Positions 3,519 through 63,740 of a DNA stretch of 64,000 nt are shown here, in pieces. The notes beneath the pieces are model-generated. The model was given only the letters and a program-made list of their open reading frames with translations. It did no database searches and was not told the DNA's origin. Origin of the DNA: Lepidostoma basale (Eukaryota > Arthropoda > Insecta > Trichoptera > Lepidostomatidae); the NCBI GenBank assembly GCA_022606425.2, contig JAHDVF020001469.1, forward strand, positions 620,001 to 684,000, written 5' to 3'. The position numbers were made by a program, and so were the translations under genes. How positions within the stretch are numbered: the stretch's first letter is position 1; every line of letters starts with the position of its first letter.

Positions 3519-3640
3519 TGTCACCGGTTTCGGCAGTTCGCTCTCAGCTTATTGTAAAATTGCAGCGTTTTTAGCACCGGTAGATAGCAGCGAGCTGCTT
3601 TAAAAGACAGGTCGAAACTGAAAATACAGATGGAATTAAA
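3519..3640. repeat. Foldback with decayed hammerhead-like arms (ACCGGT type)
   Basis: The reverse strand reads CTGAGAG, GCGAACTGC, CGAAACCGGTGAC at 3548-3519. The + strand at 3585-3634 has gatagcagcgagctgc then aggtcgaaac. Both resemble the intact-looking 45476-45507 motif but have base changes in the catalytic box, so neither is expected to be active. Confidence 0.5.
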
Positions 3641-3779
3641 TCAAAAATATACCATATAATAGAGATTTTTTATTTTGCTATCTGGAAGTTTAACGATATA
3701 AGATTTTGTACGTTTTATCATGCAACAAAGTTTATTAACGTCGTGTAAGTTTTATGATACGAAATAATTTGAAATGTTC

Positions 3780-4400
3780 CGCCTTGCTAAGTCATTAGCA
3801 GATGTGTGGGGTTAACAATGCAGGACTTTGAGACCACACGAGTGGAGGCAATTGACTCAGACTGCTGTACCAGCATTTTACAATGGCGAAATACATTAGA
3901 TGGACAATCGAAACACCTGACACAATAGATTCTCAGCCTAACGAAGCCGATGACCGAGTGCGTAAAACGATGAATCAGGGCCCGGGTTCATACACAAAGG
4001 CTACTTGAGGTTGTCCGGCAGAGTATTGTGTGCAAAGGAAGCAAAACATATAAAAGCCGTATAGCCTACCACCCTACACGTCAGTCATTCTTGCGACTTC
4101 TAACCGACACGAGTCTACGTTATCAAGTCAACGTCACGAGGGATCTCGGACTCGCTCCTGCCGACCTACGAAGCCACTCGACTACGTCACGTAGCTTCTG
4201 GCGAGTCTTCGCTTCAGCTGACCGACACTACCACCCAGCGTAACATCGTCCTCAGCTGCTCGCCGTCCGAACTCCGCCCCGCTGCTATCGACACCATGTG
4301 AAGATACTCCGCCGTCTATCCACGTTCCATTACGAGTACATAATACAACATTTTGAATGTATACAAATTCTTGTAGACAAATACTGGATTTTACCCATTG
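3780..4400. other. No gene recognised
   Basis: The stretch has moderate GC and short open frames on both strands that overlap one another and resemble no protein I know. No tRNA, repeat tail or terminal repeat was identified. Confidence 0.35.
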
Positions 4401-4419
4401 CGGATATATTATTTTTTTA

Positions 4420-4610
4420 TAAGGATTCATTGTATCTCAATAGAAACGAAGATGTACATTGTTTTTCTGGGAACAGAATGTGGTGGCCGAGGCGCTTACA
4501 GGACTTATGACCTGTCATTGGTTGGGTTGAGCGATCGCTTTATGTTTAACAACATTCCCCATTCCGCCCTTCTGAGACCACCACATCTGACAAATTTTTG
4601 GAACTTGTAT
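4420..4610 (+). repeat. Repeat R, copy 1
   Basis: This is an unclassified dispersed repeat of about 190 bp. Shared blocks are tatctcaatagaaacgaaga, gtggtggccgaggcg, ttacaggacttatgacctgt, cattggttgggtt and cattccgcccttct. The internal strings gtggtgg and ccaccac are in inverse orientation about 115 bases apart. Five copies exist in this window. Confidence 0.65.
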
Positions 4611-4869
4611 ATATGCTAGCATCTGGAACTAGCATCATCTATTAAGATTACATAATACTATTAATGTATAATTACTTGTGAACGAGAATAATCGTTGAAA
4701 ACTCCTACGCCTTTCAACCATCACCACACCCCCAAAGTGGTGACCTCTCCTGACCCCCAAAGATGTAAAAAAATCTATTATTTTAATCAAAATATTATTG
4801 TTATTTGGGTGTTTCCAATTGATAAAAACCCTTGCAGGGCTTCCTTGATGACGTCATTACACCTTAAAC

Positions 4870-5220
4870 TGAGACGAATATCGAAAACAATTCGTTCCCT
4901 TCGAGGACCGACGTTTTCCCGCCTCCGTTTTTCCGCCGGCCGACGCGCGCCGACTGTCTTTTGCTTCCGTTATTTATGGTTGATAAATTCGCCGGCCCGC
5001 CGCGGCTGTGCGCCATTTTTAACGGCATTAATATTTGACAGCTGGCCTCTGGACCTTATTATATTTATTGCCGGCCCGTCGGGGGACGAGGAGTTTATAT
5101 CGAAGCGATTTTTTCATTTGAGGCAATCGGACCTTTTGCGGATTACGCGCCTTTATCATCCGCCGCCATTTTTTTTTCAACGTGGATTCACGTACATTTT
5201 CAATGTTCTTTTGCAACATT
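4870..5220. other. GC-rich island without a recognised gene
   Basis: The block is CpG-rich (gccggccgacgcgcgccgac, cggcccgccgcggctgtgcg). A 176-codon frame crosses it on the + strand, but it has biased composition, no domain I recognise and no promoter or splice context. I treat it as non-coding. The preserved CpGs and lack of repeat similarity make it a candidate for unique, possibly conserved DNA. Confidence 0.35.
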
Positions 5221-5317
5221 GGTAAATGGCTCTCGATTAACTCTTCATTTTGTGGTGCAGCAAATCTGCTTCAAACCAAAAAATCTACTAATATAGCCTC
5301 TTGGTGATTTACATTAC

Positions 5318-5640
5318 ACAGTCTTCTTCTTCCTTATTGTAGACCTATGTGGTCTGTTCTCCAGAGTGTTGCTCCTCCTGTGAGGTAGATTCCCAGCTGT
5401 CCTTTTATCTTTTAGTAGGTCTTCCACGAGGACGAATCTCATGAGGTTGATTATGTAATGCAATAAAGGGGAGTCTGGTGGTGTCCATTCTTTGAACATG
5501 GCCGTACCAGTCCCTTTTTCGCTGTCTGCTCCATCTTATAATATCCTCAACCTCACATATCTCACTTATTCTGGTGTTCCTCACGCGATCCCTCACTTTC
5601 TTGCCTGCTATCGTCCTCAGTATCTTCATTTCGGAAGTCC
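5318..5640 (-). mobile_element. RTE-like LINE family B, truncated copy
   Basis: The reverse strand encodes MKILRTIAGKK, DRVRNTRISEICEVEDII, WSRQRKRDWYGHVQRM and RPRGRPTKR, the post-reverse-transcriptase tail of RTE-like elements. The frame is open for 74 codons (5629-5405) and then lost. The 3' end is rich in AAG on the coding strand (cttcttcttcc at 5323-5333). The copies at 16450-16930 and 33165-33770 are longer. Confidence 0.75.
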
Positions 5641-5794
5641 GAACTTCCGAAATTACACGGTCACATAATAAAATTAGTTCAAACCAATATAGACTGTAAC
5701 GCCCCTAACGATTAAGATAGTTATTTGCCTGTTTAAGAATTAATTTATGTACATTTAAGTGTATTATAACTCGACGTGTATTAAGTGTATTATA

Positions 5795-5935
5795 GAACGC
5801 CTGGCTCCTGATCCAGGGGACGTGGGTTCAAGCCTGGACACGACCAGATTCCTTCTTCATAATAATGAGCTATTTTCTGCTCACATTGAAGATTGTAATA
5901 ATAAATTCTAATATCATTGATTTAAATCCTTGGTA
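5795..5935 (+). mobile_element. SINE2, tRNA-like, copy 1
   Basis: It matches 17655-17820 over its whole length: tagaacgc, tggctcctgatccagggga, gggttcaagcctgga, gattccttcttcataataat. The string gggttcaagcc fits a polymerase III B box, and the region before it looks like the anticodon arm of a tRNA-derived head. Confidence 0.65.
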
Positions 5936-5954
5936 TTAGTTTTTTTTAATAATA

Positions 5955-8496: not shown

Positions 8497-8616
8497 AATT
8501 GTATCTGTCAAAACTGACCACATTCATGAAAAATATGTTTAAATATTTATAACACTAATAAAGGGCTTCTGTGTCCGAAACATGTTTGTTTTTTAATTTT
8601 TTTTTAAATGTAGTTT
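8497..8616 (+). repeat. Single arm of the GGGC-type hammerhead foldback family
   Basis: The sequence ctgtcaaaactgaccacatt then acactaataaagggcttct, tccgaaacatgttt corresponds to one arm of the complete foldback at 59242-59689. The box reads CTAATAA rather than CTGATGA, so this copy is probably inactive. A MITE (8619-8903) separates it from what looks like its continuation (attatatacaac). Confidence 0.6.
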
Positions 8617-11219: not shown

Positions 11220-11420
11220 TTTCAGAATTAAAAAAGCATTGTTTAGACCATTTTATTAAAAAAAAAATTTAAATACACGACATGTTTCAGAGGATACCTC
11301 CATCCTCAGGTGTAAAAAATACAACAAAAACTAAACAAAGAAAGACTAATAAAAAACGCATTTAAAATTCGATACAAAAATTCTAAATTTAAAATTAAGT
11401 TGGGCTATTTGTTATTAGAA
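11220..11420 (-). repeat. Hammerhead-bearing repeat, GGAGG family
   Basis: It is the inverse counterpart of 27640-27850: on the reverse strand it shares gaattttaaatgcg, gtctttctttgtttagtttt and the ribozyme-like core, followed by cgtgtatttaaa. The second arm is not found next to it. Confidence 0.65.
11275..11313 (-). ncRNA. Hammerhead-ribozyme-like motif (CTGAGGA box, ACATGT)
   Basis: On the reverse strand: ACAC, CTGAGGA, T, a GGAGG/CCTCT hairpin with a TAT loop, GAAA, CATGTC, GTGT. CTGANGA plus GAAA is the type-I hammerhead core, where position N is free. ACAC and GTGT can form stem I across the predicted cleavage site after GTC. Stem III would be only two or three base pairs. One extra T lies between the box and the hairpin, as in the other copies. 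Activity is predicted, not shown. Confidence 0.65.
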
Positions 11421-11641: not shown

Positions 11642-12927
11642 TTAGGTCCTTACATATGAAATTGGCGTTTTGTATGGGAGGAACATAAAATTGATTTTTT
11701 TTAAATATAATATATTTATTTAATCAAAGTATGTACCATTGCTATCTATGCACTTTTGCCATCTCATAGGTAGTTCATCGATCCGTTTTCTAAAAAAACC
11801 ATTCGGACGGGAACCAATAAAGTCTTTGAAGTCGGTTTGGACTGCCCCATCGAAGTTGAATTTTTTCCCTTGCAAGAAGTTATCCAAATTTCGAAAAAAA
11901 AGTAATCTGTTGGGGCAAGGTCCGGAGAGTACGGTGGATGTCTTAGACATTCCAATCGAAGCTCTTCTAATTTGGTAGCCGTCTGTTGTGCAGTGTGTGG
12001 TCTAGCGTTATCATGAAGCAGCAGTGGCCTAGAGGGATTAACCAGCCACGGTTGTTTAGCAGCTAGCTTTTCCATCATGGTTTGCAGTTGCTGACAATAG
12101 ACATCTGCCGTAATCGTCTGGCCAGATTTAAGAAAGCTGTAGTGAACGACACCAGCACTAGTCCACCAAACGCTCACAAGTAACTTTTTTGGAGTCAATT
12201 TTCGCTTGGGGCATGGTTTGGCTGGTTCGGCAGGGTTCAGCCATTACGATGAGCGCTTCCGATTATCATACAGGATCTACTTTTCATCACAGGTAATGAT
12301 TCGATTCAAAATCCCTTCATTATTGTGCCGGTTGAGTAATGCAACGCAGCAGTCAACGCGCGTTTGTTGATTTGCTTCACTCAATTCGTGAGGTACCCAC
12401 CTTTCAAGCTTTTTCACCTTCCCGATTTGCTTCAAGTGGATTAAAACAGTTTTATCACTTACACCGCAGCCTGCAGCTAACTCGGACGTAGTTTGCGATG
12501 GATCCGCTTCCACAATAGCCTTCAATTCTTCATTATCAACTTTGGTCTCCGGCCGTCCCCGGGGCTTGTTCTGCAGGTCGAAATTTCCAGAACGAAAACC
12601 TTGGAACCAAAAACGCACTGTGTTTTCTTTTGCGGCACCGTCGCCATACACATCATTAATCCTTCGAGCCGTTTCTGCAGCACTGGTGCCACGGTGGAAC
12701 TCGTACTCGTAAATAACGCGATATTTCAAGTTTTCCATTTTGTAAACTGAGTGACGCAAAGAAAAAAAATAATTGAGGAAAAAACAAATGAATTATAATT
12801 TTTGAAACACAAATACTTGAGTAAATAGCTGTATAAATTTAAATTTGGAATTCCTAACCAAAGAGAAGATATTTGAAATCAAAGTTGCCAGTACGGCAAA
12901 ACGCCAATTACATATGTAAGGACCTAA
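11642..12927 (-). mobile_element. mariner transposon, near full length (1286 bp)
   Basis: The terminal inverted repeats start TTAGGTCCTTACATATGAAA at 11642 and end TTACATATGTAAGGACCTAA at 12927. The element is flanked by TA on both sides (11640-11641 and 12928-12929). Its size and ends fit the cecropia-type mariner group. It interrupts the first unit of the tandem array at 12935-13320. A solo end of the same family is at 61029-61188. Confidence 0.92.
11720..12738 (-). pseudogene. mariner transposase, inactivated
   Basis: The start is MENLKYRV. The N-terminal DNA-binding half has VRFWFQGFRSGNFDLQNKPR and GRPETKVDNEELK, the helix-turn-helix part of mariner transposases. The catalytic domain keeps all three acidic positions: ITCDE, LLHDNARPH and YSPDLAPTDY (D,D34D layout). 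Two in-frame stops follow soon after ITCDEK (near 12275 and 12240), where related proteins continue with a tryptophan. A frameshift occurs in a T run after TDYFF, and the C-terminus resumes as RNLDNFLQGKKF to GTYFD in another frame. The protein would be about 340 residues if unbroken, the usual mariner length. Confidence 0.9.
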
Positions 12928-12934: not shown

Positions 12935-13320
12935 CACCTGTTATCTACAGACTCCATGATGTTTATATTTTACTCAACATTTGTATGGTAAGATCTTCTA
13001 TTGTGCATCTGTATAACACGTGTGACCATATATATTTAACTTTACATTTGTATGGTGAGATAGTATATTATGCACCTGCATAACACGTATGACCATATAT
13101 ATTTTACTTTACATTTGTATGGTAAGATGTTCTGTAATGCACCTGCATTACACGAGTCACCATATATATAATTTACTCTAACGTTTGTATGGTAAGATAT
13201 TCTTTTATGCACTCGAAATACACTTGTGACCATATACGAGTATGGTGTATTTAACTTAACGTTTGTATGGTAAGATATTCTATTATGCACCTGTATTAAA
13301 CATGTGACCATATATATTTT
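12935..13320. repeat. Tandem array, about five units of 66-78 bp
   Basis: Each unit contains a(c/a)(a/g)tttgtatggtaagat, then a tatgcacctg-like segment, then tgtgaccatatata. Unit starts are near 12978, 13044, 13111, 13181 and 13259. The units differ by about 10-20%, so the array is old. Confidence 0.8.
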
Positions 13321-19640: not shown

Positions 19641-20030
19641 GATCTCTTAGACGAATGTGTGGATACTCTGTGTATGATAGAGTGTCGAATGAAAATATAA
19701 GAAGCGAATGATGGTGTTATGAAAAAAATAATGAATGAATCATTAAGATGGTTTGGACATATGGAATGAATGAATGAAGAAAGAATGGTAAAAAAATTCT
19801 ATGTTAACGATGTAAATGGAACCAGAAATAGAGGAAGACCGAGGAAAACGTGGCATGATCAAATAAATCAAATATTGAATGTCGGCCATGTGAGGACACA
19901 GATAAATCGACGCGCGTGCATGACACGATGTATGAATGTTGAGGAAGCGAGAGAAATATGTCAGGAATGAAATGTGTGGCAGTCTATTCTTTCTGCCTAC
20001 CCCTTCGGAGAGACGGAGTGATGGTTAGTT
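19640..20030 (+). mobile_element. LINE family A copy with GTTA tail
   Basis: It encodes degraded EERMVKKFYVNDVNGTRNRG, KTWHDQINQILNVGHV, ACMTRCMNVEEAREICQE, then a stop, and ends ggagtgatggttagttaatt. It matches 39373-39852 in content. A second, more decayed copy follows directly at 20060-20355. Confidence 0.75.
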
Positions 20031-20059
20031 AATTGTTTTTAATATTAATTTTGTGCACT

Positions 20060-24289: not shown

Positions 24290-24790
24290 AAAAAATTATA
24301 CCTATTTTTCCGAGCGCCAAGGTGGTGTAACCCCTTAAGAAAAAATAAAAAATATATGTATATTTTTGCAACCAATGGATGCATGGAGTTAGTTAGTTCA
24401 ATCTTTCATCATAAATTTAGCAGATTTTTTCAAAACTCAATAAAAAATCAACCGTATATCATCAAACGTCAGCCGGGCAACAAAAAACTTCGCAAAAATG
24501 AATAATTCGATTCGTTATTGTGGATCCATGTGTCAAAGTTGAACTGAAAAAATTCCTCCACTAACTCGCTATGGATAATCCCCTACTCCGGGGGAGGGCC
24601 AGTTTATTCAATATGAAGTTACAAAGAGGGTAAATAATGTATAATGGAACTTCAACCTAAAAAACTGAAGCTGGTGAATAGACACAAAAGTAATTCAACA
24701 AATTTTAACTAACTAAATTATATTTTATTTCTTCTATATTCGCCATACTTTGTGTTGTACTCGTAGATGCTTTTTTTTACATACTTTGCA
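24290..24790. other. No gene recognised
   Basis: The stretch has no reading frame of note and no tail or terminal repeat. The only regularity is short A/T runs. Confidence 0.35.
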
Positions 24791-24799
24791 TATACTACA

Positions 24800-25020
24800 C
24801 TTACATTAAAAAAAATTAAATTACATAGACATGTTTCGGCCAACCAGTCCTTCTTCAGTGATACATATTATAAAGATACATATTTAAAATATTATAAAAG
24901 TGTTTACATGATCTGACAGATGTTATAAAGATTTATTTTGGAAGGACTGGTTGTCCGAAACATGTCTATGTAATTTTTTTATAATGTAAGTGTTGTGTAT
25001 ACAAAGTTAATAAAAAGGAA
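24800..25020. repeat. Hammerhead foldback, GGAC family, internally deleted
   Basis: The left arm (aaattacatagacatgtttc) and right arm (gaaacatgtctatgtaattt) are inverse copies; the outer ends acttacatt and aatgtaagtg also match. The right arm has lost the CTGANGA box to a deletion. Confidence 0.7.
24828..24858 (-). ncRNA. Hammerhead-ribozyme-like motif (CTGAAGA box, ACATGT)
   Basis: Reverse strand order: CTGAAGA, A, GGAC/GGCC-like hairpin with a TGGTT loop, GAAA, CATGTC. The core boxes fit the consensus. Stem I pairing is weak (needs a bulge). The mirror copy at 24941-24966 keeps hairpin, GAAA and CATGTC only. Confidence 0.5.
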
Positions 25021-25159: not shown

Positions 25160-25618
25160 GTATGTTCTTCTTTCCTGACATTCCTCTCACGATTCTTCAT
25201 CATTATTACATCACGTCATACGCGCACGTCGATTTCTCCGACTCCTTACGTGGCCAACATTTTATTATTATTATTTTGTTGAATCGCTCTATCATGAGCC
25301 GAGTCGATGGAAAGGATATTATATCTATCGTAGTGATTCTCGTGACATGTGATAGGAAGTTAATCTATCGCCATTTTATTGTCACATGAATTCTACACCA
25401 GACCAAAGACAGTGTGACAATCACACTGCCTTTGCCGGGAATCGAACCCAGAACCTTCGGGGTGGCAGTCAAGCCACTTACCACTCAGCTACGAAGGTCG
25501 TCAATTTATATTTGATTGATTAGTTGTGGCACATTTTCCTTGTTCCGTTTTCATCATAACGTATTCTTTATTTACCATTCTTTCCACGTGTCCAAACCAT
25601 CTCAATAACCCTTTTATT
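25160..25618 (-). mobile_element. LINE family A copy split by SINE1
   Basis: The pieces at 25160-25257 (cgcacgtcgatttctccgac) and 25501-25618 (tttaccattctttccacgtg then tccaaaccatctcaataac) belong together. The SINE between them is on the same strand. The coding potential is destroyed. Confidence 0.7.
25258..25500 (-). mobile_element. SINE1, complete copy
   Basis: The reverse strand starts gaccttcgtagctgagtggt and contains aaggttctgggttcgattcc and cactgtctttggtctggtgt, then ends in AAT repeats (ttattattattatt at 25258-25272). A and B boxes are recognisable. Confidence 0.8.
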
Positions 25619-27620: not shown

Positions 27621-27719
27621 ACTTGTATCAAATAGCCCAGATTAATTTTTAAATTATTGTGTCGAATTTTAAATGCATTTTTTATAAGTCTTTCTTTGTT
27701 TAGTTTTTATTATATTTTT

Positions 27720-27758
27720 ACACCTGAAGATGGAGGTATCCTCCGAAACATGTCGTGT
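27720..27758 (+). ncRNA. Hammerhead-ribozyme-like motif (CTGAAGA box, ACATGT)
   Basis: Order: ACAC, CTGAAGA, T, GGAGG-TAT-CCTCC, GAAA, CATGTC, GTGT. Stem II is five perfect pairs, stem I four (ACAC with GTGT), and stem III the palindrome ACATGT. The box fits CTGANGA with N = A; the 11275-11313 relative has N = G and keeps the same stems. Predicted cleavage is after GTC at 27754. One unpaired T precedes stem II. This is the best hammerhead candidate in the window. Confidence 0.7.
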
Positions 27759-27864
27759 TTTTTAATATTTTGTGGATTAAACAAAGTTATTTTCAATTTC
27801 CTAAGTATAGTACTATGGAATTCTACAGGGTTGATGCCTTAGCGTTCAATAAAACAGTATTTAT

Positions 27865-34069: not shown

Positions 34070-34325
34070 TATAATGATTAATACGAATGAAAACGTCAGT
34101 TTTCTAGAGGTTTTATTATATTTTATGGGAATGACATGTTTCGCCCTTGTAAGGCATTATCAAATGTTTGATTTGATAATGCAATGAAGACATTTGATAA
34201 TGCCTTAGAAGGGCGAAACATGTCATTCCCATAAAATATAATAAAACCTCTAGAAAACTGACGTTTTCATTCGTATTAATTATTTAATATGGAGTTTTAC
34301 ATCATTGTTCAAGAAACAATAAATA
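34070..34325. repeat. Foldback family P, best copy
   Basis: Perfect or nearly perfect arms: aatacgaatgaaaacgtcag, ttttctagaggttttattat, attttatgggaatgacatgt, ttcgcccttgtaaggcatta and their complements. The right arm continues into tatttaatatggagttttac and attgttcaagaaacaataaa. Each inner end carries a motif TTGATAA, T, GCCTT/AAGGGC hairpin, GAAA, CATGTC (34133-34164 reverse and 34194-34223 forward). The box TTGATAA deviates from CTGANGA in two positions in all family P copies. Confidence 0.8.
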
Positions 34326-34334: not shown

Positions 34335-34745
34335 CTAACTAACTAACTAACCATCGCGTCGTCTCTCCGGAGGGGTAGGCAGAAATAATGGAACGCCACA
34401 CTGTTCTGTCCTGGCATACTTCTCTCGATTCCTCTACATTCATACATATTGTCATGCACGCACGTAGATTTCTCCGACTCCTCACGTGACCGATATTTAA
34501 TATTTGATTGATTTGATCGTGCCGCGTTTTCCTCGGTCTTCATCTATTTCTAGCTCCGTTCACGGCGTTTACATATACCTTTCCATGTATCCAAACCATC
34601 TTAAGGACCCTTTCATTATTTTGTTCATGACAATTTCATTCGTACCGCATTCACTTCTTATACTTGCATTTGACACTCTATCATATACAGATTTACCACA
34701 CATTTGTTTTAGAGATCTCATTTCTAAATCAACAATAAATAATAA
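34335..34745 (-). mobile_element. LINE family A copy, GTTA tail
   Basis: The tail ctaactaactaactaaccat abuts the family P foldback. The reverse strand encodes EMRSLKQMCGKSVYDRVSNA, IRSECG and KGSLRWFG upstream, and decayed NVEE and SILSAY segments downstream, in changing frames. Confidence 0.75.
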
Positions 34746-41720: not shown

Positions 41721-41754
41721 TGTTTTATTTTTAACAAAAAAAATTGTCAAATGA

Positions 41755-42425
41755 TTTTACTGAAATCTCTTGATGGAAGTTCATTTTAAATAATAATTAA
41801 ATAAAACGATGTTTTTTAACTACTTCCACTTTTGTCTTTATTTAGACAGCGACCGGTTTCGCCAGGCTCGCTGGCATCGACAGACTGGTAACACTATTGT
41901 AAACTTAGTCCTTTATATACATACAGATCAGGGGTGGTAAACATGATTCTATACAAAAATAATCTTCAAATATTTATGTAAAATTTTTCTGAATTTAACT
42001 ATTGGTATTACAGGTATTCTTGGAGGTTCGTGTTTAATACAATGGGTTTTAATTTTTATTATCTCTTACATATTCATATATAATGTTTGAAAAAATGGTA
42101 ATATAATATTTAAATTCAGTAATAATTTAAACAAAATTACCATTTTTTCAAACATTATATATGAATATGTAAGAGATAATAAAAATTAAAACCCATTGTA
42201 TTAAACACGAACCTCCAAGAATACCTGTAATACCAATAGTTAAATTCAGAATCATGTTTACCACCCCTGATCTGTATGTATATAAAGGACTAAGTTTACA
42301 ATAGTGTTACCAGTCTGTCGATGCCAGCGAGCCTGGCGAAACCGGTCGCTGTCTAAATAAAGACAAAAGTGGAAGTAGTTAAAAAACATCGTTTTATTTA
42401 ATTATTAATTTAAAAAAAATGTTTT
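41755..42425. repeat. Large hammerhead foldback, GCCAG family
   Basis: Arms of about 300 bases are near-identical inverse copies across ataaaacgatgttttttaac, gtctttatttagacagcgac, acttagtcctttatatacat, gaggttcgtgtttaatacaa. The centre is at about 42090-42130. The left arm has an extra 60 bases (ctatacaaaaataatcttca) that are missing on the right. Each arm holds a hammerhead-like core pointing outward (41851-41884 reverse, 42315-42347 forward). Confidence 0.9.
42315..42347 (+). ncRNA. Hammerhead-like motif, GCCAG family (variant box)
   Basis: Order: CTGTCGA, T, GCCAG-CGAGC-CTGGC, GAAA, ACCGGT, C. Stem II is five perfect pairs and the GAAA and palindromic stem III are present. The box departs from CTGANGA at one base (T for A), and clear stem I pairing is not seen. 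The identical mirror copy is 41851-41884. Confidence 0.45.
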
Positions 42426-50410: not shown

Positions 50411-50854
50411 AAAGCCCAATTTCAATTTGCAATTTGGATAAGTCTAAGTTCTCGTGGCGATCGGACGTGTTTTGAAGTATCTCCTAATTTTTCTATAAAT
50501 CTCGCTTATTTTAATACCTAGAGTTCTGTAAATCGGCCCATAGCTTACTTATAATAACGTGTTACTGATTTCATATATGAAATCTTTTTAAAGTGCAAAT
50601 AAACAGTGTTTTTACGTGAATTACAATATCACCATTATTATCTTAAAATCAGTTATTTTGTTTAATACAGGCGTCACAAGCGTGCAAAGTGCCCAACCCA
50701 AACACGTGTGAACTTTTGTGTAGCCAGGGACAAGTGTTGTAAAATTTGTCAACTGATTTATTGGGGTCCCAGATTAGTGTCTACTCAACCTAAATTCTTT
50801 ATTTCAAACGATCCCTTTTTTTCGGTATTCCAAGGAATTACTTCGCCTAGTAAG

Positions 50855-51895
50855 ATGACCTTCAACGAATGCAATTCTTTTGCCGATGCTGCTCGTCTAG
50901 CTAATACGATTAAAAAAGTCCTTGGAACTAATATTCTTAGCAAGGAAAAAAAAATAACAATATCCAAAGCAGTAGACAATCTTATACACTATATAACAGT
51001 GCTCGAAGGAAAAGATACTCCAGTAGATAATGTGCAAAATAGAAATTGCCAAATAAATAATTCCACCTATGCCGAAATAGCAGCTAAACCTTCGATTACG
51101 GAGCTTGGTATAACTCCTAAGCCCCTAAGGCCATCTCTTGTTATCCACCCCAAGCTTGATTCGGGAATAATCTCATCTGTTGAGACCGAACAGTTGGTCA
51201 AGGCAAAAATCAAACCATCACAACTTGGGATCAGAATAACTGGAGTGAGACGGATTTCAAACAATGGAATTTTGATCCATACAGACTCAACCGAGGAGTG
51301 TGAAAAACTTCGCGCCGCAACCAACCTCATTACCTCACTCGAATCAAGATCACCAAAAAAACGAGCTCCAAGGATAATATTCCTCAATGTTCCTAGGGAA
51401 ACCAGTAACGAGGACTTCATACGACAAGTCCACAAAACAGTACCGGCTCTTCAACTATCAACAATGACCGAGGATCAACTTGTAAACCTGGCGAAGTTTA
51501 GCCATTTAACTGGTCCGCGGGAGGGTCGAACCTGTCATCGGGTGTTCAGCGTGCCTTCGGCTGTGCGGCATACCCTAATAAAGGCGGAGCGCTGCTTTTC
51601 AGACTGGACTGTCTGCCGCATCAGAGACTTCCTGGGAATCACACGCTGCAACAGATGCTGCAGCTTCGGCCATCCGGAGCGTTTCTGCAAGGAACGAGAG
51701 TCCACTTGCGCCCACTGCGCTCAGATTGGACACTCGATCGATACTTGCCCCAATAAAATGGGTCCAGCAAAATGTGCGTCTTGCCTAAAAAACAATCTCG
51801 ACTTTGCCCACCAAACCAAGAATAAGACGGACTGTCCCTCGTATACTAGATACCAGATCATGGCCCTAAACTCAATTGACTATGGCTGCGAATAA
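50855..51895 (+). CDS. LINE ORF1, gag-like nucleic-acid-binding protein with CCHC zinc knuckles
   Basis: 346 codons from the first in-frame ATG (aagATGacc). The frame is open a further 49 codons upstream without an ATG. The N-terminal part contains a helical LANTIKKVLGTNIL-type segment. The middle (GIRITGVRRISNNGILIHTD, then RIIFLNVPRETSNEDFIRQV) looks like two RRM-like/pre-zinc-knuckle folds, as in Jockey/I-type ORF1 proteins. The C-terminus has CNRCCSFGHPERFC and CAHCAQIGHSIDTC, both CX2CX4HX4C, plus a third looser finger (CASC...H...C). It should bind the element's RNA and package it with ORF2. No frameshift or stop is present. It overlaps ORF2 by 14 bases. Confidence 0.88.
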   Translation: MTFNECNSFADAARLANTIKKVLGTNILSKEKKITISKAVDNLIHYITVLEGKDTPVDNVQNRNCQINNSTYAEIAAKPSITELGITPKPLRPSLVIHPKLDSGIISSVETEQLVKAKIKPSQLGIRITGVRRISNNGILIHTDSTEECEKLRAATNLITSLESRSPKKRAPRIIFLNVPRETSNEDFIRQVHKTVPALQLSTMTEDQLVNLAKFSHLTGPREGRTCHRVFSVPSAVRHTLIKAERCFSDWTVCRIRDFLGITRCNRCCSFGHPERFCKERESTCAHCAQIGHSIDTCPNKMGPAKCASCLKNNLDFAHQTKNKTDCPSYTRYQIMALNSIDYGCE

Positions 51896-54815
51896 CTCCT
51901 CAACTAATATCACTAACCAGCAATCATCACACCTAACAGAAGAGAAACTAACTTCCCTCGACAGCTATACACCAATAGAGCCAAGCCTTCGCCTTATCTA
52001 CCTTAACGCCAGAAGTATAAAAAACAAATTAGATGAACTTCAACACTTACTTAAAAGATGCAGCTTCCCAATTCACATCATTGCTATAGCCGAAACTTGG
52101 TTAAATGAGGGCGATGATCTGTTCTATAATTTACCTGGGTACAAATGTGCTTTTACATCTCGTAAATCTAAAAAAGGTGGTGGTGTGGGCATTTATGTAA
52201 AAAACTCTTTACAATTTTCAAAAATTGAGAATATGTGTGTTGATGATAAGGATTGTTTTTTAGGAATTAAATTAGAGTGTAAGGGAATCGCTCCACTCAA
52301 GATATATACAATTTATAGGAAACCCGAAAATAATATTAACCCATTTATTAACTCTCTAGAATCTATACTTAAGAAATCTCGGTGTGAAACATTAATTCTG
52401 GGAGATTTTAATATTGACTTCTCAGTGCCTAGTGACGCTTTATTCAATTACCTAAACACGTTGAAATCTTACCATTTTAACGTTCTTAACCAAACACATA
52501 CGACTCGCGATACCCTAAACCGTAATTCCCTTATTGATCATATAATATCCAACAATACGAAGATAGCTGGCCGGATATCGAATATCGACAGCGATATTAG
52601 CGATCATAATATTTTAATACTGGATTATCTGAAGGATCTCAGGAGACTTCCTAATAATAGAGCCCCCCTTACCACTTCATGTAAAAAAATTAACATTACA
52701 GGTATGAAAAATGACCTGAAATCAAAACAAATTGTCTATAAAAATGATGATTTAAATAACAACTATGATGAATTCTGTCAACACATAAAAAATATAATTG
52801 AGAAGAACACCTATGAATTTAACCCAAAGGGAAAAAACAAAAACAACATTGGAAATACTCCATGGTACGATAGTAGATTGAATGAACTAATTAAAGTACG
52901 ACAATTTTATTTCAAAACATGGAAAAATGCACCGAATAACACAAATCTTACACTAAAAAATAAATCACGAAATGCGGTCACAAGCTATCGACGCACTCTG
53001 AAACAGAATTACTTATCTAATATATTTGATAAAAACTTACACGATTCGCGGCAAACCTGGATAACTATAAACTCCATTCTCAAAAATGACATATCCCATA
53101 AACGGGAACACGTGGACACAATATTAATAAATGATATGGAAGTGAAAGATAAATTATTAATTGCAAACGCTTTTAATACGTACTTCACCTCAGTTGGTCA
53201 TGATCTCGCATCGAAAATTCCAATAATGACCACTGACTCTAATTCAATATCAAACTCTAAATCTGTTCTGCAATCTTTTTACATGACATATACTAATGAA
53301 ACAGAAGTAAAACGCATAATATCGAACTTAAAGAATCGTGCTGCCTCAGGAGTGGACAAAATATCACCCAAAATGTTAAAGGCCTGCAGCGATGAACTGG
53401 CGAATGATTTAGTCAAACTAATAAATAAAACCATCTCCTCTGGTATTTTTCCAAATAAACTGAAAATAGCTAAAGTAGTCCCAATTCATAAAGGCGATTC
53501 CACAAAACATGTTAATAATTATCGCCCGATTTCTATTCTTCCAATCATATCAAAAATATTTGAAACTCTCATGAAGAACAGACTAACAAATTATCTTGAT
53601 AAAATTAAATTTCTTTCACCCAACCAATACGGTTTTACAAAAAAGTCAACCACAAAAAGTGCAACATTTGACATAATAGCCTCACTTCAAAATCACATTG
53701 ACAGCAAAAAGTACACATCTGCTATTTTTATCGATTTAAAGAAAGCGTTTGACACTGTGGACCATAAGATATTGCTCGAAAAGCTTCAATATATTGGAGT
53801 TACGCACAAATACTTAGATCTCTTCAGAAGCTACCTAACAAACAGGTTACAAATAGTTGAAATAGACAGTTATCAGAGCACCATTGAAAGGGTTACATGT
53901 GGAGTACCCCAAGGATCTATCCTGGGCCCACTGCTCTTTCTAATATACATCAATGACATAACAGATCTACAACTACACGGTACACTGCAACTCTATGCAG
54001 ACGACACAGTGATCTTCTATCAACATGAAAATTTAAAGCAATTAGAAACGAATATTCAATCGGATCTTGTGGAACTCGCGGAGTGGCTGAGACTGAACAA
54101 ACTAACAGTTAATGAAAAAAAAACGCACTACCTACTTTTTAATAACAGACCTCACTATGATATAAGCATACAATTAAATGGTCACCTATTACATAAACAA
54201 AACTCTACGAAATATCTGGGATTAATAATCGATGACAAACTAAATTGGAATATGCACATAGAAAAAATTATTAACAAAATAACTCCAGTAATAGGTATTC
54301 TCTATAGATTCCAAAAATTGATAAAAACCAATACTCTGCTTTCTATCTACTATGCATTCGTGCACTCGCACCTATCATACCTGTCCTGTATCTGGGGTTT
54401 TACAACAAAAAAATATATCAACCAACTACAGGTACTACAGAACAGGGCAATAAAAAACATACTTAAACTCCCAGTTGACACCCCCACTAAAGATATCTAC
54501 AAAAATACAAAAATCCTTCCAATAAAAATACTGCCGCTATACGAAATAACTTGTACAATCAAGCAATTGATTCAAAAATCATTACATTTTAATACAACCT
54601 TTAATCTCAACAATGGCATACATGACCATAACACTAGACAAGCAAACAACCTGTATATCCCCAAAGTATCCACTACTAAATACGGAATAAAATCACTTAA
54701 ATTCATAGCTTTTTCTGCACTTAATAGACTTCCGGAACACCTTAAAGATGAAACAAAAAATAATCCACTTAAATTATATTTCCTTAACCAGATTTTAGAA
54801 AATAATGATTTTTAA
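51882..54815 (+). CDS. LINE ORF2: APE endonuclease and reverse transcriptase
   Basis: 977 codons from ATG at 51882; a TTG lies six bases upstream in frame, but the ATG is the natural choice. The endonuclease (residues about 38-250) shows LNARSIKNK (N at 42), AETW (E at 71), LGDFNIDF (D175, N177) and SDH (241-242), all catalytic positions of the AP-type enzyme. The reverse transcriptase (about 470-760) has SGVDKISPKML, YRPISILP, FIDLKKAFDTVDH (616-628), GVPQGSILGP (674-683) and YADD (705-708). The C-terminus (TKKYINQLQVLQNRAIKNIL, HNTRQANNLYIPKV) is the CR1/Jockey type. There is no RNase H domain. Function: nick target DNA and prime reverse transcription of the element RNA. Confidence 0.92.
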   Translation: MAANNSSTNITNQQSSHLTEEKLTSLDSYTPIEPSLRLIYLNARSIKNKLDELQHLLKRCSFPIHIIAIAETWLNEGDDLFYNLPGYKCAFTSRKSKKGGGVGIYVKNSLQFSKIENMCVDDKDCFLGIKLECKGIAPLKIYTIYRKPENNINPFINSLESILKKSRCETLILGDFNIDFSVPSDALFNYLNTLKSYHFNVLNQTHTTRDTLNRNSLIDHIISNNTKIAGRISNIDSDISDHNILILDYLKDLRRLPNNRAPLTTSCKKINITGMKNDLKSKQIVYKNDDLNNNYDEFCQHIKNIIEKNTYEFNPKGKNKNNIGNTPWYDSRLNELIKVRQFYFKTWKNAPNNTNLTLKNKSRNAVTSYRRTLKQNYLSNIFDKNLHDSRQTWITINSILKNDISHKREHVDTILINDMEVKDKLLIANAFNTYFTSVGHDLASKIPIMTTDSNSISNSKSVLQSFYMTYTNETEVKRIISNLKNRAASGVDKISPKMLKACSDELANDLVKLINKTISSGIFPNKLKIAKVVPIHKGDSTKHVNNYRPISILPIISKIFETLMKNRLTNYLDKIKFLSPNQYGFTKKSTTKSATFDIIASLQNHIDSKKYTSAIFIDLKKAFDTVDHKILLEKLQYIGVTHKYLDLFRSYLTNRLQIVEIDSYQSTIERVTCGVPQGSILGPLLFLIYINDITDLQLHGTLQLYADDTVIFYQHENLKQLETNIQSDLVELAEWLRLNKLTVNEKKTHYLLFNNRPHYDISIQLNGHLLHKQNSTKYLGLIIDDKLNWNMHIEKIINKITPVIGILYRFQKLIKTNTLLSIYYAFVHSHLSYLSCIWGFTTKKYINQLQVLQNRAIKNILKLPVDTPTKDIYKNTKILPIKILPLYEITCTIKQLIQKSLHFNTTFNLNNGIHDHNTRQANNLYIPKVSTTKYGIKSLKFIAFSALNRLPEHLKDETKNNPLKLYFLNQILENNDF

Positions 54816-57944: not shown

Positions 57945-58087
57945 TGACCCTTCCATTATTCCTATTCAGGGGACAAATACTCTTGACTATAAAAAGTACC
58001 TTGTCTTCCTAATGTCGAACCATCTCTAATGCGCTCCTGTCTCCTGCGTCAAGAGACTGTCGCACCTCAATATAATTAATAACATTT

Positions 58088-58360
58088 TTGTATCCCTCAC
58101 TATTTCTCATAGGAATGCTGGACTTCAACTCCAGAACTATAGTAAAGCCGAAGCGTTGCCCTAGCACAAATTTCGGGTATCGAGCCTTTGCAGTAGCTGG
58201 CCCATCAGCTTGGAATAGTCTACCTTCTTACCTTAAGTGCATAAATGATCTGAAAGATTTTAAATCAAACCTTAAAACCCATATTTTGCTTCTTAGTAAA
58301 AATAATGTAAATTTTCCCTATTATATAATAAATACGAATGAAAACGCATATTTTCTATAA
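58088..58360 (+). pseudogene. CR1/L2-like ORF2 C-terminus, copy 1
   Basis: It encodes LIGMLDFNSRTIVKPKRCPS, TNFGYRAFAVAGPSAWNSLP, YLKCINDLKDFKSNLKTHIL. The first 19 residues are from upstream sequence of another LINE (a chimeric start). Catalytic parts are missing. The identical second copy is at 58554-58826. Confidence 0.7.
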
Positions 58361-58553
58361 TTTTAATTATATTTTATGGGAATGACATGTTTCGTCTTTC
58401 TAGGCCATTATCACACATTTGATTACACTTTAGAAAGGCAAAACATAAAATACTATAAAAAGTACCTTGTCTTCCTAATGTCGAACCATCTCTAATGCGC
58501 TCCTGTCTCCTGCGTCAAGAGACTGTCGCACCTCAATATAATTAATAACATTT

Positions 58554-58826
58554 TTGTATCCCTCACTATTTCTCATAGGAATGCTGGACTTCAACTCCAG
58601 AACTATAGTAAAGCCGAAGCGTTGCCCTAGCACAAATTTCGGGTATCGAGCCTTTGCAGTAGCTGGCCCATCAGCTTGGAATAGTCTACCTTCTTACCTT
58701 AAGTGCATAAATGATCTGAAAGATTTTAAATCAAACCTTAAAACCCATATTTTGCTTCTTAGTAAAAATAATGTAAATTTTCCCTATTATATAATAAATA
58801 CGAATGAAAACGCATATTTTCTATAA
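58554..58826 (+). pseudogene. CR1/L2-like ORF2 C-terminus, copy 2
   Basis: The translation is identical to 58088-58360. It lies in the second unit of the 466-bp tandem duplication. Confidence 0.7.
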
Positions 58827-59010
58827 TTTTAATTATATTTTATGGGAATGACATGTTTCGTCTTTCTAGGCCATTATCACACATTTGATTACACTTTAGA
58901 AAGGCAAAACATGTCATTCCCATAAAATACAATTAAACTTCCAGAAAGCAGACGTTTTTATTCGTATACATTATTTAATATGGATTTTCATCAATGTTCA
59001 AGAAACAATC
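58797..59010. repeat. Foldback family P, full copy after the duplication
   Basis: Arms: aatacgaatgaaaacgcata ... gggaatgacatgtttcgtct and aaggcaaaacatgtcattcc ... agcagacgtttttattcgta, then attatttaatatggattttc and gttcaagaaacaat. The core lacks GAAA in the right arm (CAAAAC). Confidence 0.7.
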
Positions 59011-60375: not shown

Positions 60376-60404
60376 ATATATCCGATTATTTTTAAACGAC
60401 AACA

Positions 60405-60775: not shown

Positions 60776-60777
60776 AT

Positions 60778-61735: not shown

Positions 61736-61849
61736 ACTATCAAGGTTAATTTAGTTTTTATTTAAAATCATGGTTTATGAGTTTATGAGTTCCATTAATA
61801 TTCAATTCGATTCAATTTATTTAATTTATTAAAAATTGAGGCGTTAACA

Positions 61850-62040
61850 CTGTGGAATTCCATAATGACGATTTTTTTATGAATTAAAACACTGTTTTTT
61901 CCACTTACACCTCCATCATCTGGAGATCGATATAAACTGAGATTTTATCGATCTCCCGATGATGAAGGTGTAAAATTTCGAAACATGTCGAGAAAAATAA
62001 ACTTAAAAGTGGAAAAAACAGTGTTTGAATTCATAAAAAT
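61850..62040. repeat. Hammerhead foldback, TGAAGG family
   Basis: Outer arms acactgttttttccactt and aagtggaaaaaacagtgttt are inverse, as are atctggagatcgat and atcgatctcccgat. The centre is near 61942. Confidence 0.75.
61956..61989 (+). ncRNA. Hammerhead-like motif (CCGATGA box, ACATGT)
   Basis: Order: TCTC, CCGATGA, T, GAA-GGTGTAAAA-TTTC, GAAA, CATGTC, GAGA. Stem I can form as TCTC with GAGA. Stem II is short, and the box has C in place of T at position two. Confidence 0.5.
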
Positions 62041-62165
62041 TCGTATATTGTATTACTAAAGTCGAACAATCTATCATGCGTTCCTGGTATTGTACCTGTT
62101 CTCAAATAGATGCCTTAAACTGTCAACATGTTTGTTATGTCTTTTAAGTGAACAGCTTCTCTTCG
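62041..62165 (+). mobile_element. TAAA-family LINE 3' UTR fragment
   Basis: It has aaagtcgaacaatctatcat, gcgttcctggtattgtacct and tagatgccttaaactg, as at 41140-41225. Confidence 0.6.
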
Positions 62166-62169
62166 AGCG

Positions 62170-62860
62170 TGTTGCTGACGACGTATAAAGTTTGATAAAT
62201 AAGCAACTAACAGTAATCGAAACAGGTCAACCGTCAACGAATTTTCAAAGTAAAAATTATATTTATTTGTAAACTAATGCCACCAGTGATAACTTGAATG
62301 CTTTAACCCTTACAGCTCCTATGTCCACACGTTGGGGCCATTGGGTTTTTCCCACCAACTCCTATGTCCACTACGTTTAGCCATTTTTTTCTCAAACATT
62401 TTTTATGAACTTCAAATAGGGTTTTGCTATTTTTTTAAATGTAAGAATCAAATGAATATTCTAGAAATACTGTCTTATTATCTGACCATTCCTTTGTCAT
62501 CAGGAATGTGGGAAAAAAATGGAAAAAAAACTCGGAGCCCAAAGGGTAAATAGGTAGATGGGAATGTAGAGTGTAGCATAAAACAATAATATGTAAGAAA
62601 CTTTAATACCATACACATATATTAGTAGATTTTTCAATTTGTGAGAAATTAGCTCCACCTTGAAATGAAGGGTTAATATTTAGCCAGTTAGATGTCTTGA
62701 TGTTAGAGACTGTAACAATCTCCGAAACGTCGGTCAATAAGTTCATACTGAAGACCCCAAGAATTATATTTTCACGTGTTTTAAAATAATGTCATATAAA
62801 TGGTGTTGACATTTATCATCCGAATTCGTTCTCCCGTCACGAAACTATCAAATTTATATC
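62170..62860. other. No gene; decayed hammerhead-like string
   Basis: At 62692-62735 the + strand reads TTGATGT, TAGAGACTGTAACAATCTC, CGAAACGTCGGTC, a possible but degenerate member of the hammerhead grammar (GAGA/TCTC hairpin). The rest is AT-rich without frames that convince. Confidence 0.3.
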
Positions 62861-62869
62861 TCCATTTCC

Positions 62870-63030
62870 CTCTCTCTATCTGTTTCGACCCCGCGGATCC
62901 TCCGAATTATCAATTATTAAACATCAACATGGAAATGGGCCCCGAGGGGGCGCCCTCCGCCCTCTAACCCGGGGGTCACGGTTCCCGGAAATGCCACCCT
63001 AGCGCCCCCGATCTTTCACCACCCTCCCTC
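62870..63030. other. GC-rich island without a gene
   Basis: It has gggccccgagggggcgccct, ccgccctctaacccgggggt and gccaccctagcgcccccg. CpGs are frequent. No frame or repeat partner. Confidence 0.4.
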
Positions 63031-63129
63031 TGAATCGCCAGTTTGATGTTGTGTACAGATTATGGAGAAATAAAATGATGTACCTAATGCTTTTCTTCTG
63101 ATTATGAAACACGTGTATTTATTTCTTAT

Positions 63130-63740
63130 CTTACTCAAGATAAATTATGTATTGTATCTAGAACAATGATGTAAAACTCCATATTAAATAATTAAAACGT
63201 CTGTTTTCTAGAAATTTTGTTTGAAGAAGTTGAATGACACGTTTCTCCTATCTAAAGCATTATCAAATGTATTTTTAAATAGTCCATTGCTTTGGCCGAA
63301 ACACTGATGATACTTCTACATTATTACTGTTAAAATTTAAAACACTGTTATAATATCACAATTTCTTTTTATTCACTGAGAGTTTCGCGACAGCTGTTTC
63401 GCCATTTGATGTTGGCATCATCAGGTGTTACAATAAACTGATGATCCCGACAAGTGTTTTAAATTTTAACAGTAAAAATGTATTTTTTTATATTTTGTAT
63501 ACGAGTACATGACATGTTTGCCTTTCTAAGGCATTATTAAAAGGCCTTTTTTCTAGAGGTTCTATTTGAAGACTGTGAATGACATGATTCTCCTTTCTAA
63601 GGCATTATCAAATGTGTTTTTATTATATTTTATATAAATGAGATGTTTACCTGTTTAAGGCTTTATTAAAATGTCTTTTTCTAGAAGTTTTATTTGAAGA
63701 ATGTCTAAGGATTCGCCTGTCTAAGGCATTATCAAATAAT
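63130..63740. repeat. Cluster of foldback family P pieces
   Basis: Arms at 63150-63290, 63500-63560, 63570-63640 and 63640-63740 share gtctgttttctagaaattt, aatgaca(c/t)g(t/a)ttctcc and taaggcattatcaaatg. They look like serial partial copies of one arm in the same orientation. Confidence 0.6.
63385..63428 (-). ncRNA. Hammerhead-ribozyme-like motif (CTGATGA box, ACAGCTGT)
   Basis: Reverse strand order: ACAC, CTGATGA, T, GCCA-ACATCAAA-TGGC, GAAA, CAGCTGTC, GCGA. Both boxes match the consensus and stem II is four perfect pairs. Stem I is weaker (ACAC opposite GCGA) than in the 18967-19010 copy. Stem III is an eight-base palindrome. Confidence 0.6.

Follow-up and report, generated by a model that had tools for sequence, protein, structure and literature searches.

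Hammerhead-like motifs with an extra core nucleotide, probably belonging to Penelope-like elements, in the trichopteran Lepidostoma basale

Minimal type-I hammerheads of Penelope-like elements (PLEs) were reportedly described by Cervera and de la Pena in 2014 and by Lunse, Weinberg and Breaker in 2017, and de la Pena and Flores are said to have found in 2001 an extra core nucleotide in the hammerhead of a viroid, chrysanthemum chlorotic mottle viroid. Passages of three papers relate that PLE hammerheads acting as dimers are already published, and the ribozymes that they describe share with the motifs reported here the type-I order, a tiny self-complementary stem III, a position in the pseudo-LTR (pLTR) and a proposed action as double hammerheads, whereas an unpaired base between A9 and stem II, present in 75/75 strict matches here, sets ours apart from those descriptions (PMC7761336, PMC7229834, PMC6466107). 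A passage of one of them reports that loop-loop contact between stems I and II is lacking in the minimal PLE forms (PMC7761336). Another parallel is PAc, a Poseidon-clade PLE of Anolis carolinensis, which has a hammerhead at the pLTR-ORF junction, begins reverse transcription internally in a stem-loop tail, and cleaves and extends both DNA strands; the start codon of PAc follows G8, at the start of stem II, and the cut lies 26 bp further on (PMC11167929). The viroid case, an extra nucleotide in a natural hammerhead core, is noted in a short mention and in a reference title (PMC11014351; PMC6155905) and concerns one viroid as against many retroelement families here. Metazoan retrozymes, as characterized in part of one paper, likewise carry type-I hammerheads in small non-coding elements but form tandem repeats of ~150-450 bp with canonical cores, an arrangement not seen here (PMC7229834).

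We analysed 64,000 nucleotides of the L. basale genome (contig JAHDVF020001469.1, positions 620,001 to 684,000; the window), for which an earlier note had proposed at least a dozen hammerhead-like loci in several unrelated repeat families, with PLEs or retrozymes as possible homes. The bare CTGANGA box turns up 22 + 13 times across the window, so that by itself it has little meaning. A strict descriptor, asking in this order for a box with at most one mismatch, 0-3 extra bases, a stem II of 4 bp or more, GAAA, a palindrome of 4 or 6 nt, T and H, matched the window 10 times; in 200 dinucleotide shuffles it averaged 0.135 matches and never gave more than 1. A 200 kb flank, which played no part in setting the descriptor, behaved in the same way (16 matches, 0.73 expected by shuffling). 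A covariance model (R1), trained on 26 copies from window and flank, recovered 18 window copies at E <= 0.0017 (10 from the training set, 8 from outside it), one at 0.013 and one at 0.049. Two exact hammerhead patterns (patterns 1 and 2) found 13,942 and 14,411 matches in the 769-Mb genome, and their reversed versions 1 and 0, respectively. The descriptor itself accounts for part of the core and palindrome conservation among the aligned rows, and because rows and patterns were partly chosen by their core, the test of the core is the excess over controls. Loose descriptors do yield scattered matches, yet chance or a scanning artefact is contradicted by the shuffles and reversed patterns, with which the flank agrees, and its probability is negligible. 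The hammerhead motif is confirmed as real and exceeds chance. The motifs and insertions of the window are as follows, with "descriptor" marking the strict matches.

27718..27760, plus, family A motif, CTGAAGA t GGAGG/CCTCC, ACATGT, stem I ACAC/GTGT; descriptor; R1 52.3 bits, E 3.2e-14
11273..11315, minus, family A motif; descriptor; R1 47.3 bits
18965..19012, minus, family B motif, palindrome ACAGCTGT; descriptor; R1 48.7 bits
63383..63430, minus, family B motif; descriptor; R1 47.9 bits
46658..46705, plus, family B motif with altered box; R1 39.9 bits, outside training set
41845..41889, minus, family D motif, CTGTCGA (A6 to U), ACCGGT; descriptor; R1 46.9 bits
42309..42353, plus, family D motif; descriptor; R1 46.9 bits
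16343..16387, minus, family D motif; descriptor; R1 43.7 bits
30959..31003, minus, decayed family D motif; R1 16.5 bits, E 0.013
61950..61995, plus, family F motif, CCGATGA, stem I TCTC/GAGA; descriptor; R1 43.7 bits
45470..45513, plus, family E motif, CAGAAGA, ACCGGT; descriptor; R1 38.9 bits
59290..59333, minus, family C motif, predicted cut site GUU; descriptor; R1 37.8 bits
24822..24864, minus, family C motif, left arm of head-to-head pair; R1 33.9 bits, outside training set
24930..24972, plus, family C motif, right arm, paired with 24822..24864; R1 26.6 bits; inverted arms
8549..8592, plus, decayed family C motif; R1 25.8 bits
37408..37451, plus, decayed family C motif; R1 23.3 bits
60202..60244, minus, decayed family H motif; R1 21.3 bits
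34127..34169, minus, decayed family H motif, left arm of head-to-head pair; R1 19.1 bits, E 0.0017
34188..34230, plus, decayed family H motif, right arm of the 34127 pair; R1 20.4 bits; arms 97% identical
41747..42131, minus, family D PLE 3´ end (pLTR, hammerhead, tail); matches L157, sequence that follows a PLE reading frame, at 95.9% over 386 nt
42101..42415, plus, opposite arm of the 41747 head-to-head insertion; 84.0% over 368 nt to L158
34068..34288, no strand, family H, small 221-bp head-to-head element with inverted arms
24770..25017, no strand, family C, small 248-bp head-to-head element with inverted arms

Read directly, the box is exact at all six loci for which the earlier note had claimed this, on the minus strand at 11275, 18967, 24828, 59295 and 63385 and on the plus strand at 27720. 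The variation noted at N7 holds as well (G, T, A, A, T and T at 11275, 18967, 24828, 27720, 59295 and 63385), and so does the single extra base between box and stem II at each of them. At 24828, however, stem II is interrupted (GGAC/GGCC), and at 59295 the predicted cut falls after GUU rather than GUC. Position 3519, given as the start of the series, is a degenerate look-alike that R1 does not recover at E <= 1. Copies beyond those named at the time lie at 8549, 16343, 24930, 30959, 34127, 34188, 37408, 41845, 42309, 45470, 46658, 60202 and 61950.

Exactly one extra base is present in all 75 strict matches in the sequence of this genome that was examined, where 0-3 were permitted; the canonical spacing of type I hammerheads, with no nucleotide between A9 and stem II, occurs in 0 of the 75. 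Pattern 1 has no stem II requirement, and 31 of its 41 matches in the loci examined from this genome form a stem II of 4 bp or more, each with a single extra base before it; its 101 matches in IMG/VR include 7 with such a stem, at scattered offsets. Among the 100 genome matches listed for pattern 1, one extra base is found in 84 of the 85 that have a stem of at least 3 bp (15 are stemless), and among the first 50 of 100 listed for pattern 2 in 42/42 (8 stemless). The identity of the base is free, mostly U or A. In computed folds, U-type copies show the extra base paired with G12 (U-G); as a general rule such pairing is rejected, since 45 of the 84 pattern 1 matches listed with one extra base have A there. 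A second candidate role was creation of the PLE start codon (A9-U-G10.1). The geometry of PAc would fit an extra base; unlike in PAc, the first ATG of the main frame in L142 and L143 lies downstream of the ribozyme motif, and the A-type families have no AUG at the position, and this role was also rejected.

The Rfam hammerhead models, which had been proposed as a check, gave no match reaching cut-off in the window or the loci searched, and none at E <= 10 in the window or in seven loci with PLE sequence. RF00008 had no match over the genome, and control genomes were equally silent. When two 81-nt slices were searched, one gave RF00163 (Hammerhead_1) at 11.5 bits (cut-off 34); L001:4146-4193 aligns to this model in register over the core, a single base being inserted after CUGAUGA. 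The low scores are probably due to the extra base in combination with the tiny stem III.

The fold is that of a three-helix junction with covariation in stems I and II, as in type I hammerheads. Stem I, which was not selected for, is paired at 48/60 positions over 15 family representatives (shuffled mean 26.3) and to 77.1% in 24 distinct rows. Stem II was required by the descriptor in those rows; in the absence of selection, in 33 distinct standard-length strings from the first 50 of 100 listed pattern 2 matches, 148/165 pairs are formed against 136.2 in shuffles, with 0/2000 as good. The two inner pairs of stem III are invariant and contribute no covariation. The palindrome after GAAA, perfect in 23 of 30 R1 matches outside the training set, makes a stem III that would permit dimers, as in the minimal PLE hammerheads. 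Read as DNA, the stem III segment of most copies is perfectly palindromic, and for PLEs of Adineta part of one paper reports palindromes at the ends of pLTRs (PMC3846280). It is nevertheless very improbable that the motif acts at the DNA level, as a palindromic promoter or endonuclease site of the pLTR that resembles a hammerhead incidentally: two further helices change in a compensatory manner around the constant CUGANGA/GAAA junction, which a DNA palindrome leaves unexplained. When a double hammerhead is imposed on dimers, its energy is below that of two monomers in families A, C and D, level with it in B and worse in F. The computed minimum-energy dimer has another pairing, of lower energy than the double hammerhead, in all five families, and the monomer folds of A and C are no more stable than shuffles.

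The core is that of type I (CUGANGA ... GAAA, A15.1-U16.1, NUH cut site) with some departures. U4 is changed to C in family F and to A in family E, and A6 to U in family D; changes of A6 and U4 are expected to weaken or abolish hammerhead cleavage. One family-G copy (L152) has G at position 17, after which hammerheads are not known to cut. Positions 3 and 8 depart in families G, B3 and C2, and family G combines U at position 3 with A at position 8, an exchange that preserves activity according to part of one study (PMC3088659).

The supposed home in PLEs gained support. A sense-oriented motif lies downstream of the GIY-YIG end in 19 of 20 sampled PLE reading frames, spanning five motif families, with no motif at L151; family D matches the PLE 3´ region. 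Pfam places GIY-YIG above cut-off in both arms of L134, RVT_1 and GIY-YIG above cut-off in L143, and RVT_1 above cut-off in L142 with GIY-YIG just below (20.9 vs 22.6). The motif thus occupies the pLTR of elements encoding RT and GIY-YIG, as in PLEs. L142 is a tandem PLE array with three motifs at 2,954-bp spacing, one per unit (16.9 bits, E 0.0019), where the motif recurs upstream of the next unit's start codon, an arrangement that would place two motifs in one transcript. Many other copies are solo or head-to-head. Two parents of family D matches at PLE ends lie within open frames of 494 and 758 aa, and a family C motif follows PLE fragments in L030 and L141. For families A, B, E, F and H no sense-oriented copy was seen directly before or after a PLE frame, and regular expressions for RT and GIY-YIG gave nothing PLE-like that holds in 264 kb and 12 small loci. 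A decayed PLE fragment (tblastn) in L016 adjoins a family-B motif fragment of opposite direction, a suggestive link that we do not count. A tail sequence is common to A, B, D, F and H and unclear in C, C2 and I; with the ties of several families to PLE reading frames, this speaks against the view that the families are unrelated. Judged by sequence, the evidence supports the motif families being largely 3´ ends of PLEs, and we have little doubt that the motif is a PLE hammerhead motif.

The copies also have the PLE traits of tandem or inverted arrangement, 3´ tail and 5´ truncation. Neighbours are head-to-head in 11/14 cases in one set and 9/10 in another, as are 13/18 PLE frames. No convincing target-site duplications were found in 11 head-to-head pairs. 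Runs of (AACT)n border L134. Among the 11 head-to-head elements, eight measure just 176-272 bp, and in each of the 11 the arms can be aligned over 75-111 bp, which could suggest an independent non-autonomous retrozyme or SINE-like family, retrozymes being small elements with type I hammerheads in the paper cited above (PMC7229834). We consider this unlikely, as the family D copies of the window match PLE 3´ ends, 5´ truncation is variable, the pairs are head-to-head rather than tandem, and no strict match has canonical spacing. The suggested retrozyme home is not supported by the sequence examined: tandem repeats of ~150-450 bp with a canonical hammerhead were not found, the sole near candidate being a 466-bp perfect duplication at 57986-58912, whose units have a marginal partial R1 match (10.8 bits, E 0.88).

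That inserted copies begin at the predicted cleavage site was not supported by the alignment of 106 copies from families A, B, C, C21, D and F (a C5 row, swamped by a repeat flanking L134, was excluded): 1 has its 5´ end no more than 3 nt from the predicted cut and 7 no more than 8 nt. Among 15 ends inspected by eye, L026 actually runs on into the ribozyme. The inserted RNAs were thus mostly not cut there. This mismatch raises the possibility, which we hold to be a minority one, that the fold is only a structured landmark for the PLE protein (in RNA binding, the start of reverse transcription or endonuclease targeting), with cleavage lost or irrelevant and with the extra base and the A6 change as marks of relaxed catalysis. 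Family D, with A6 changed to U, is found at 6/19 positive PLE ends, two with open frames, and ribozyme mutants of PAc insert normally in vitro (PMC11167929). A landmark alone, however, need not preserve the fold of a catalytic junction, stem II varies yet keeps its pairs in the free pattern search, and the U3-A8 double swap of family G is of the kind known, from the part of the study cited, to retain activity (PMC3088659).

On balance we favour, with reserve, minimal type-I PLE hammerheads carried by thousands of 5´-truncated insertions, dimer cleavage included. Scattered insertions would consist of pLTR, hammerhead and tail. In transcripts of tandem PLEs, two hammerheads may pair through the palindrome into a double hammerhead that would cut after H17 and give unit-length RNA. 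Stem III is too short for a monomer, so that cutting would be slow or conditional on a dimer or on bound PLE protein. The tail, 3´ of the ribozyme, may be where reverse transcription begins; a start on each side of a double-strand cut would then leave the head-to-head insertions observed.

More tentatively, the PLE hammerheads may form a core class of their own, whose members require one unpaired nucleotide separating A9 from stem II, which would act as a built-in brake. The nucleotide is retained across more than 10 motif families, and extrapolation from the copies examined suggests tens of thousands of copies in the genome. The genome offers many natural motif families, several adjoining open PLE frames, and informative core variants in the extra base of all strict matches, U3-A8 of family G and the A6 change of family D; this natural variation makes brake, landmark and working ribozyme directly testable. 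The two exact patterns alone give 28,353 matches of an abundant class missed by current Rfam models. If the brake exists, cleavage would be confined to dimers or to RNA bound by the protein that the element encodes, sparing full-length template for reverse transcription; if the core class is real, searches with canonical hammerhead cores would have missed it at the scale of a genome.

The six exact hammerhead boxes claimed by the earlier note are all present on direct reading of the sequence, one on the plus strand and the other five on the minus strand. A strict descriptor (a box with at most one mismatch, 0–3 extra bases after A9, then a stem II with 4 bp or more, GAAA, a palindrome of 4 or 6 nt, T, H) matches the window 10 times; 200 dinucleotide shuffles averaged 0.135 matches and never gave more than 1. 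Applied unchanged to the 200 kb flank, it matches 16 times (60 shuffles: mean 0.73, maximum 6). One extra base is present in 10/10 and 16/16 of these matches. A covariance model trained on these 26 motifs (10 window and 16 flank rows) finds 18 copies in the window at E <= 0.0017 and, in the flank, 38 copies at E <= 0.01; training rows account for 10 and 16 of these, respectively. Extrapolation, which is not a count, from these 56 copies in 264 kb puts the genome total of the order of 10^5 copies. Elsewhere in the genome, L139:1-1700 holds six strict matches of several families inside 1.7 kb. The same note had proposed Rfam as a check, which came out negative: no hammerhead model reaches its cut-off, or E <= 10, in the window, nor is there a match at E <= 10 in seven loci of Penelope-like elements (PLEs) or any match in the window slice 27700-27780. 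An 81-nt slice of locus L001 scores 11.5 bits with Hammerhead_1 (cut-off 34), its core residues aligned and one inserted base following CUGAUGA.

The extra base recurs in matches sampled from the wider genome (768.8 Mb, 1,572 contigs), of which the window takes up bases 620001-684000 of contig C579. The exact pattern CTGANGA-N(11-24)-GAAACATGTC occurs 13,942 times in the genome and its reversed form once; for the variant with GAAACAGCTGTC the counts are 14,411 and 0. Neither pattern demands a stem II. Among 100 matches listed for the GAAACATGTC pattern, a stem II with 3 or more contiguous bp is present in 85 and absent from 15; of the 85, 84 carry a single extra base (A 45, T 38, C 1) and one fits with no extra base. 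For the GAAACAGCTGTC pattern, such a stem is seen in 42 of the first 50 of 100 matches listed, in every case with one extra base, and the other 8 lack it. Across the sampled loci of the genome, some of which were themselves chosen by the same pattern, the GAAACATGTC pattern matches 41 times, and the 31 of these whose stem II reaches 4 bp or more all have one extra base. As a control, IMG/VR viral contigs gave 101 matches to this pattern, of which 7 have a stem of at least 4 bp, with scattered offsets (numbers of extra bases) and one at offset 1. The strict descriptor finds 14 matches in viral loci, at offset 3 (6), offset 1 (4) and offset 2 (4), and one extra base in 75/75 matches in all sampled sequence of the genome. 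Ties in offset were resolved to the smaller value, so the scoring has no bias to 1 over 0.

Strict matches in the sampled genome, by source
Window: 10
Flank: 16
Loci L021-L032: 14
Loci L134-L141: 19
Loci L142-L143: 1
PLE frame ends L144-L163: 15

In an alignment of the 26 motifs (24 distinct), hammerhead pairs occupy 89.1% of cells against a shuffled mean of 63.4%, and the covariation score is 0.642 against 0.193, a value reached by 0/500 shuffles; shifting the partner 1–3 columns along gives at most 0.162. Pairing is seen in 77.1% of stem I and 94.7% of stem II cells, the two inner pairs of stem III are invariant, and neither the pairs changed on both sides nor the number of pair types rises above the shuffles (258 and 112 of 500). 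Because the descriptor that chose the rows demands stem II and the palindrome, it is stem I that provides independent evidence in this set. In 15 family representatives, 48/60 stem I and 70/75 stem II positions are paired (shuffles 26.3 and 41.5; 0/2000 as good), stem II being again subject to selection by the descriptor. Free of that selection, stem II forms 148 of 165 pairs in 33 distinct strings from the first 50 listed GAAACAGCTGTC-pattern matches, against 136.2 after shuffling, which 0/2000 shuffles match. The stem III palindromes among the representatives are ACATGT, ACAGCTGT, ACCGGT, ACAAATTTGT and ACTAGT, and a perfect palindrome is kept in 23/30 model matches outside the training set. 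Family G has U at position 3 and A at position 8, a swap described as active in an excerpt of a previous study (PMC3088659).

The location of the motif ties it to PLEs. At locus L134, two identical motifs stand head-to-head; the 662-nt arms that carry them show 100% identity, and in each arm a GIY-YIG frame ends ~115 nt upstream of the motif. A protein search from L134 found 11 proteins, four of which were examined for domains.

P0007: RVT_1 over cut-off, GIY-YIG below
P0004: GIY-YIG over cut-off
P0002: RVT_1 and GIY-YIG both below cut-off
P0011 (Lygus hesperus): named GIY-YIG in its source; neither RVT_1 nor GIY-YIG found

Searched against the genome, P0007 gave 111 scored matches among 3,654 candidates, with several open frames of 830-873 aa. 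Twenty of the 111 were picked by hand to span families, and in their 701-bp end stretches a sense-orientation motif stands at 19/20 frame ends. These 19 (model E <= 0.0032) fall into five motif families, with 4, 3, 6, 5 and 1 members; the stretch of L151 has no motif. Under a relaxed descriptor (0-3 allowed), one extra base is found at 19/19 positive ends; a weak offset-0 match in L150 was judged spurious. In L142 units repeat in tandem every 2,954 bp, and each of the three carries a motif (16.9 bits, E 0.0019) that the strict descriptor did not pick up; the frames between motifs run 831 codons stop to stop and 821 from the first ATG. The frame of L143 has 862 codons stop to stop and 845 from the first ATG, with a motif ~115 nt beyond its end. 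In Pfam, RVT_1 is over cut-off in both, and for GIY-YIG (cut-off 22.6) L143 scores 22.9, just above it, and L142 20.9, below it. At L143:221-432, a long open PLE frame has as its 5´ end a head-to-head junction which, read by eye, falls inside the hammerhead.

Judged by sequence identity, family D of the window is the 3´ end of PLEs of this type: 41747-42131 is 95.9% identical to PLE end L157, and 42101-42415 is 84.0% identical to L158. Family C lies downstream of PLE fragments at L030 and L141. In an alignment of 15 representatives, inspected by eye, a tail AAAAC-NNN-GTTTT past the ribozyme was common to families A, B, D, F and H and not clear in C, C2 and I; 5´ ends vary between copies. For families A, B, E, F and H, the putative tie to PLEs is made here only by the ribozyme and partly by the tail. 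Other features were noted in the window.

57986-58912: 466-bp unit in perfect tandem duplication, a recent duplication or assembly artefact; each unit has a marginal partial hammerhead match (10.8 bits, E 0.88)
50666-54812: probable LINE whose two open frames, of 409 and 981 aa, overlap, the second with endonuclease and reverse transcriptase domains
12280-12759, minus strand: Mariner-type transposase fragment (HTH_48)
19687-20043, 39357-39717, 34337-34670 and others (~25 places): abundant repeat that carries a TAAC-type run at one end and is probably a SINE; 69-91% match to L134 ~2512-2871; a PLE twin insertion lies at the end of one copy
25427-25498, minus strand: tRNA-like match (29.1, Rfam cut-off 29) that ARAGORN does not call; perhaps the head of a SINE
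12964-13320: 67-bp tandem repeat, ~five imperfect copies

PLE hammerheads are an already known kind, and that the motif described here is the PLE hammerhead motif we regard as very likely. A search of the open-licence literature, which did not cover the two primary PLE hammerhead papers, gave no match for the extra base, and we do not claim a first report. An extra core nucleotide is known in one viroid hammerhead, according to a reference title (in PMC6155905), and a passing remark elsewhere has its deletion raising cleavage with loss of infectivity (PMC11014351).

Excerpts from the literature state that PLE hammerheads lack helix III and may cleave as dimers, in an unknown role (PMC7761336), and that hammerhead dimers require palindromes and tandem arrangement (PMC6466107). 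Transcripts of tandem PLE arrays would carry several motifs, two of which could pair via stem III and then cut after H17, the predicted cut position. We infer this dimer cutting and hold it apart from the fold, the location, the tandem units and the palindromes, which were observed directly. In computed energies, an imposed double hammerhead is favoured over two monomers in families A (-22.4 vs -17.4 kcal/mol), C (-17.8 vs -13.8 kcal/mol) and D (-34.1 vs -31.6 kcal/mol), level in B (-21.9 vs -22.2 kcal/mol) and worse in F (-14.6 vs -30.8 kcal/mol). The computed minimum-energy dimer has a different pairing in 5/5 (A -28.5, C -21.1, D -42.3, B -28.9, F -34.1). Because of these competing dimer folds and the selection on stem II, the identity of the motif is graded apart from the full mechanism, predicted cleavage included, towards which we lean with moderate confidence. 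Three observations argue against a needed role for cleavage. Copy 5´ ends are not clustered at the predicted cut (1/106 within 3 nt, 7/106 within 8 nt). In family D, A6 is changed to U at 6/19 positive PLE ends, the core reading CTGTCGA at 6/6 family-D ends (L149, L150, L157-L160). Finally, in PAc, a Poseidon-clade PLE of Anolis carolinensis, insertion in vitro does not need the ribozyme, which cuts only when protein is present (PMC11167929).

Neighbouring motifs are mostly head-to-head. Among neighbouring motifs less than 700 bp apart in the 264 kb, 11/14 are head-to-head (binomial p 4e-5 against one quarter), and in these 11 pairs homology stops 75-111 nt from the motif start. The head-to-head orientation is also that of 9/10 neighbours among the 100 listed GAAACATGTC-pattern matches and of 13/18 PLE frames within 6 kb, the remaining five being on the same strand. 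Head-to-head PLE copies are known, and an excerpt of one report describes this arrangement as the one observed most often, with self-priming as a suggested origin (PMC3846280). In another study, a PLE protein is shown to cut both DNA strands and to extend each, with a start internal to the RNA (PMC11167929). From that work we infer that such cutting and extension of both strands would yield the head-to-head copies seen in L. basale.
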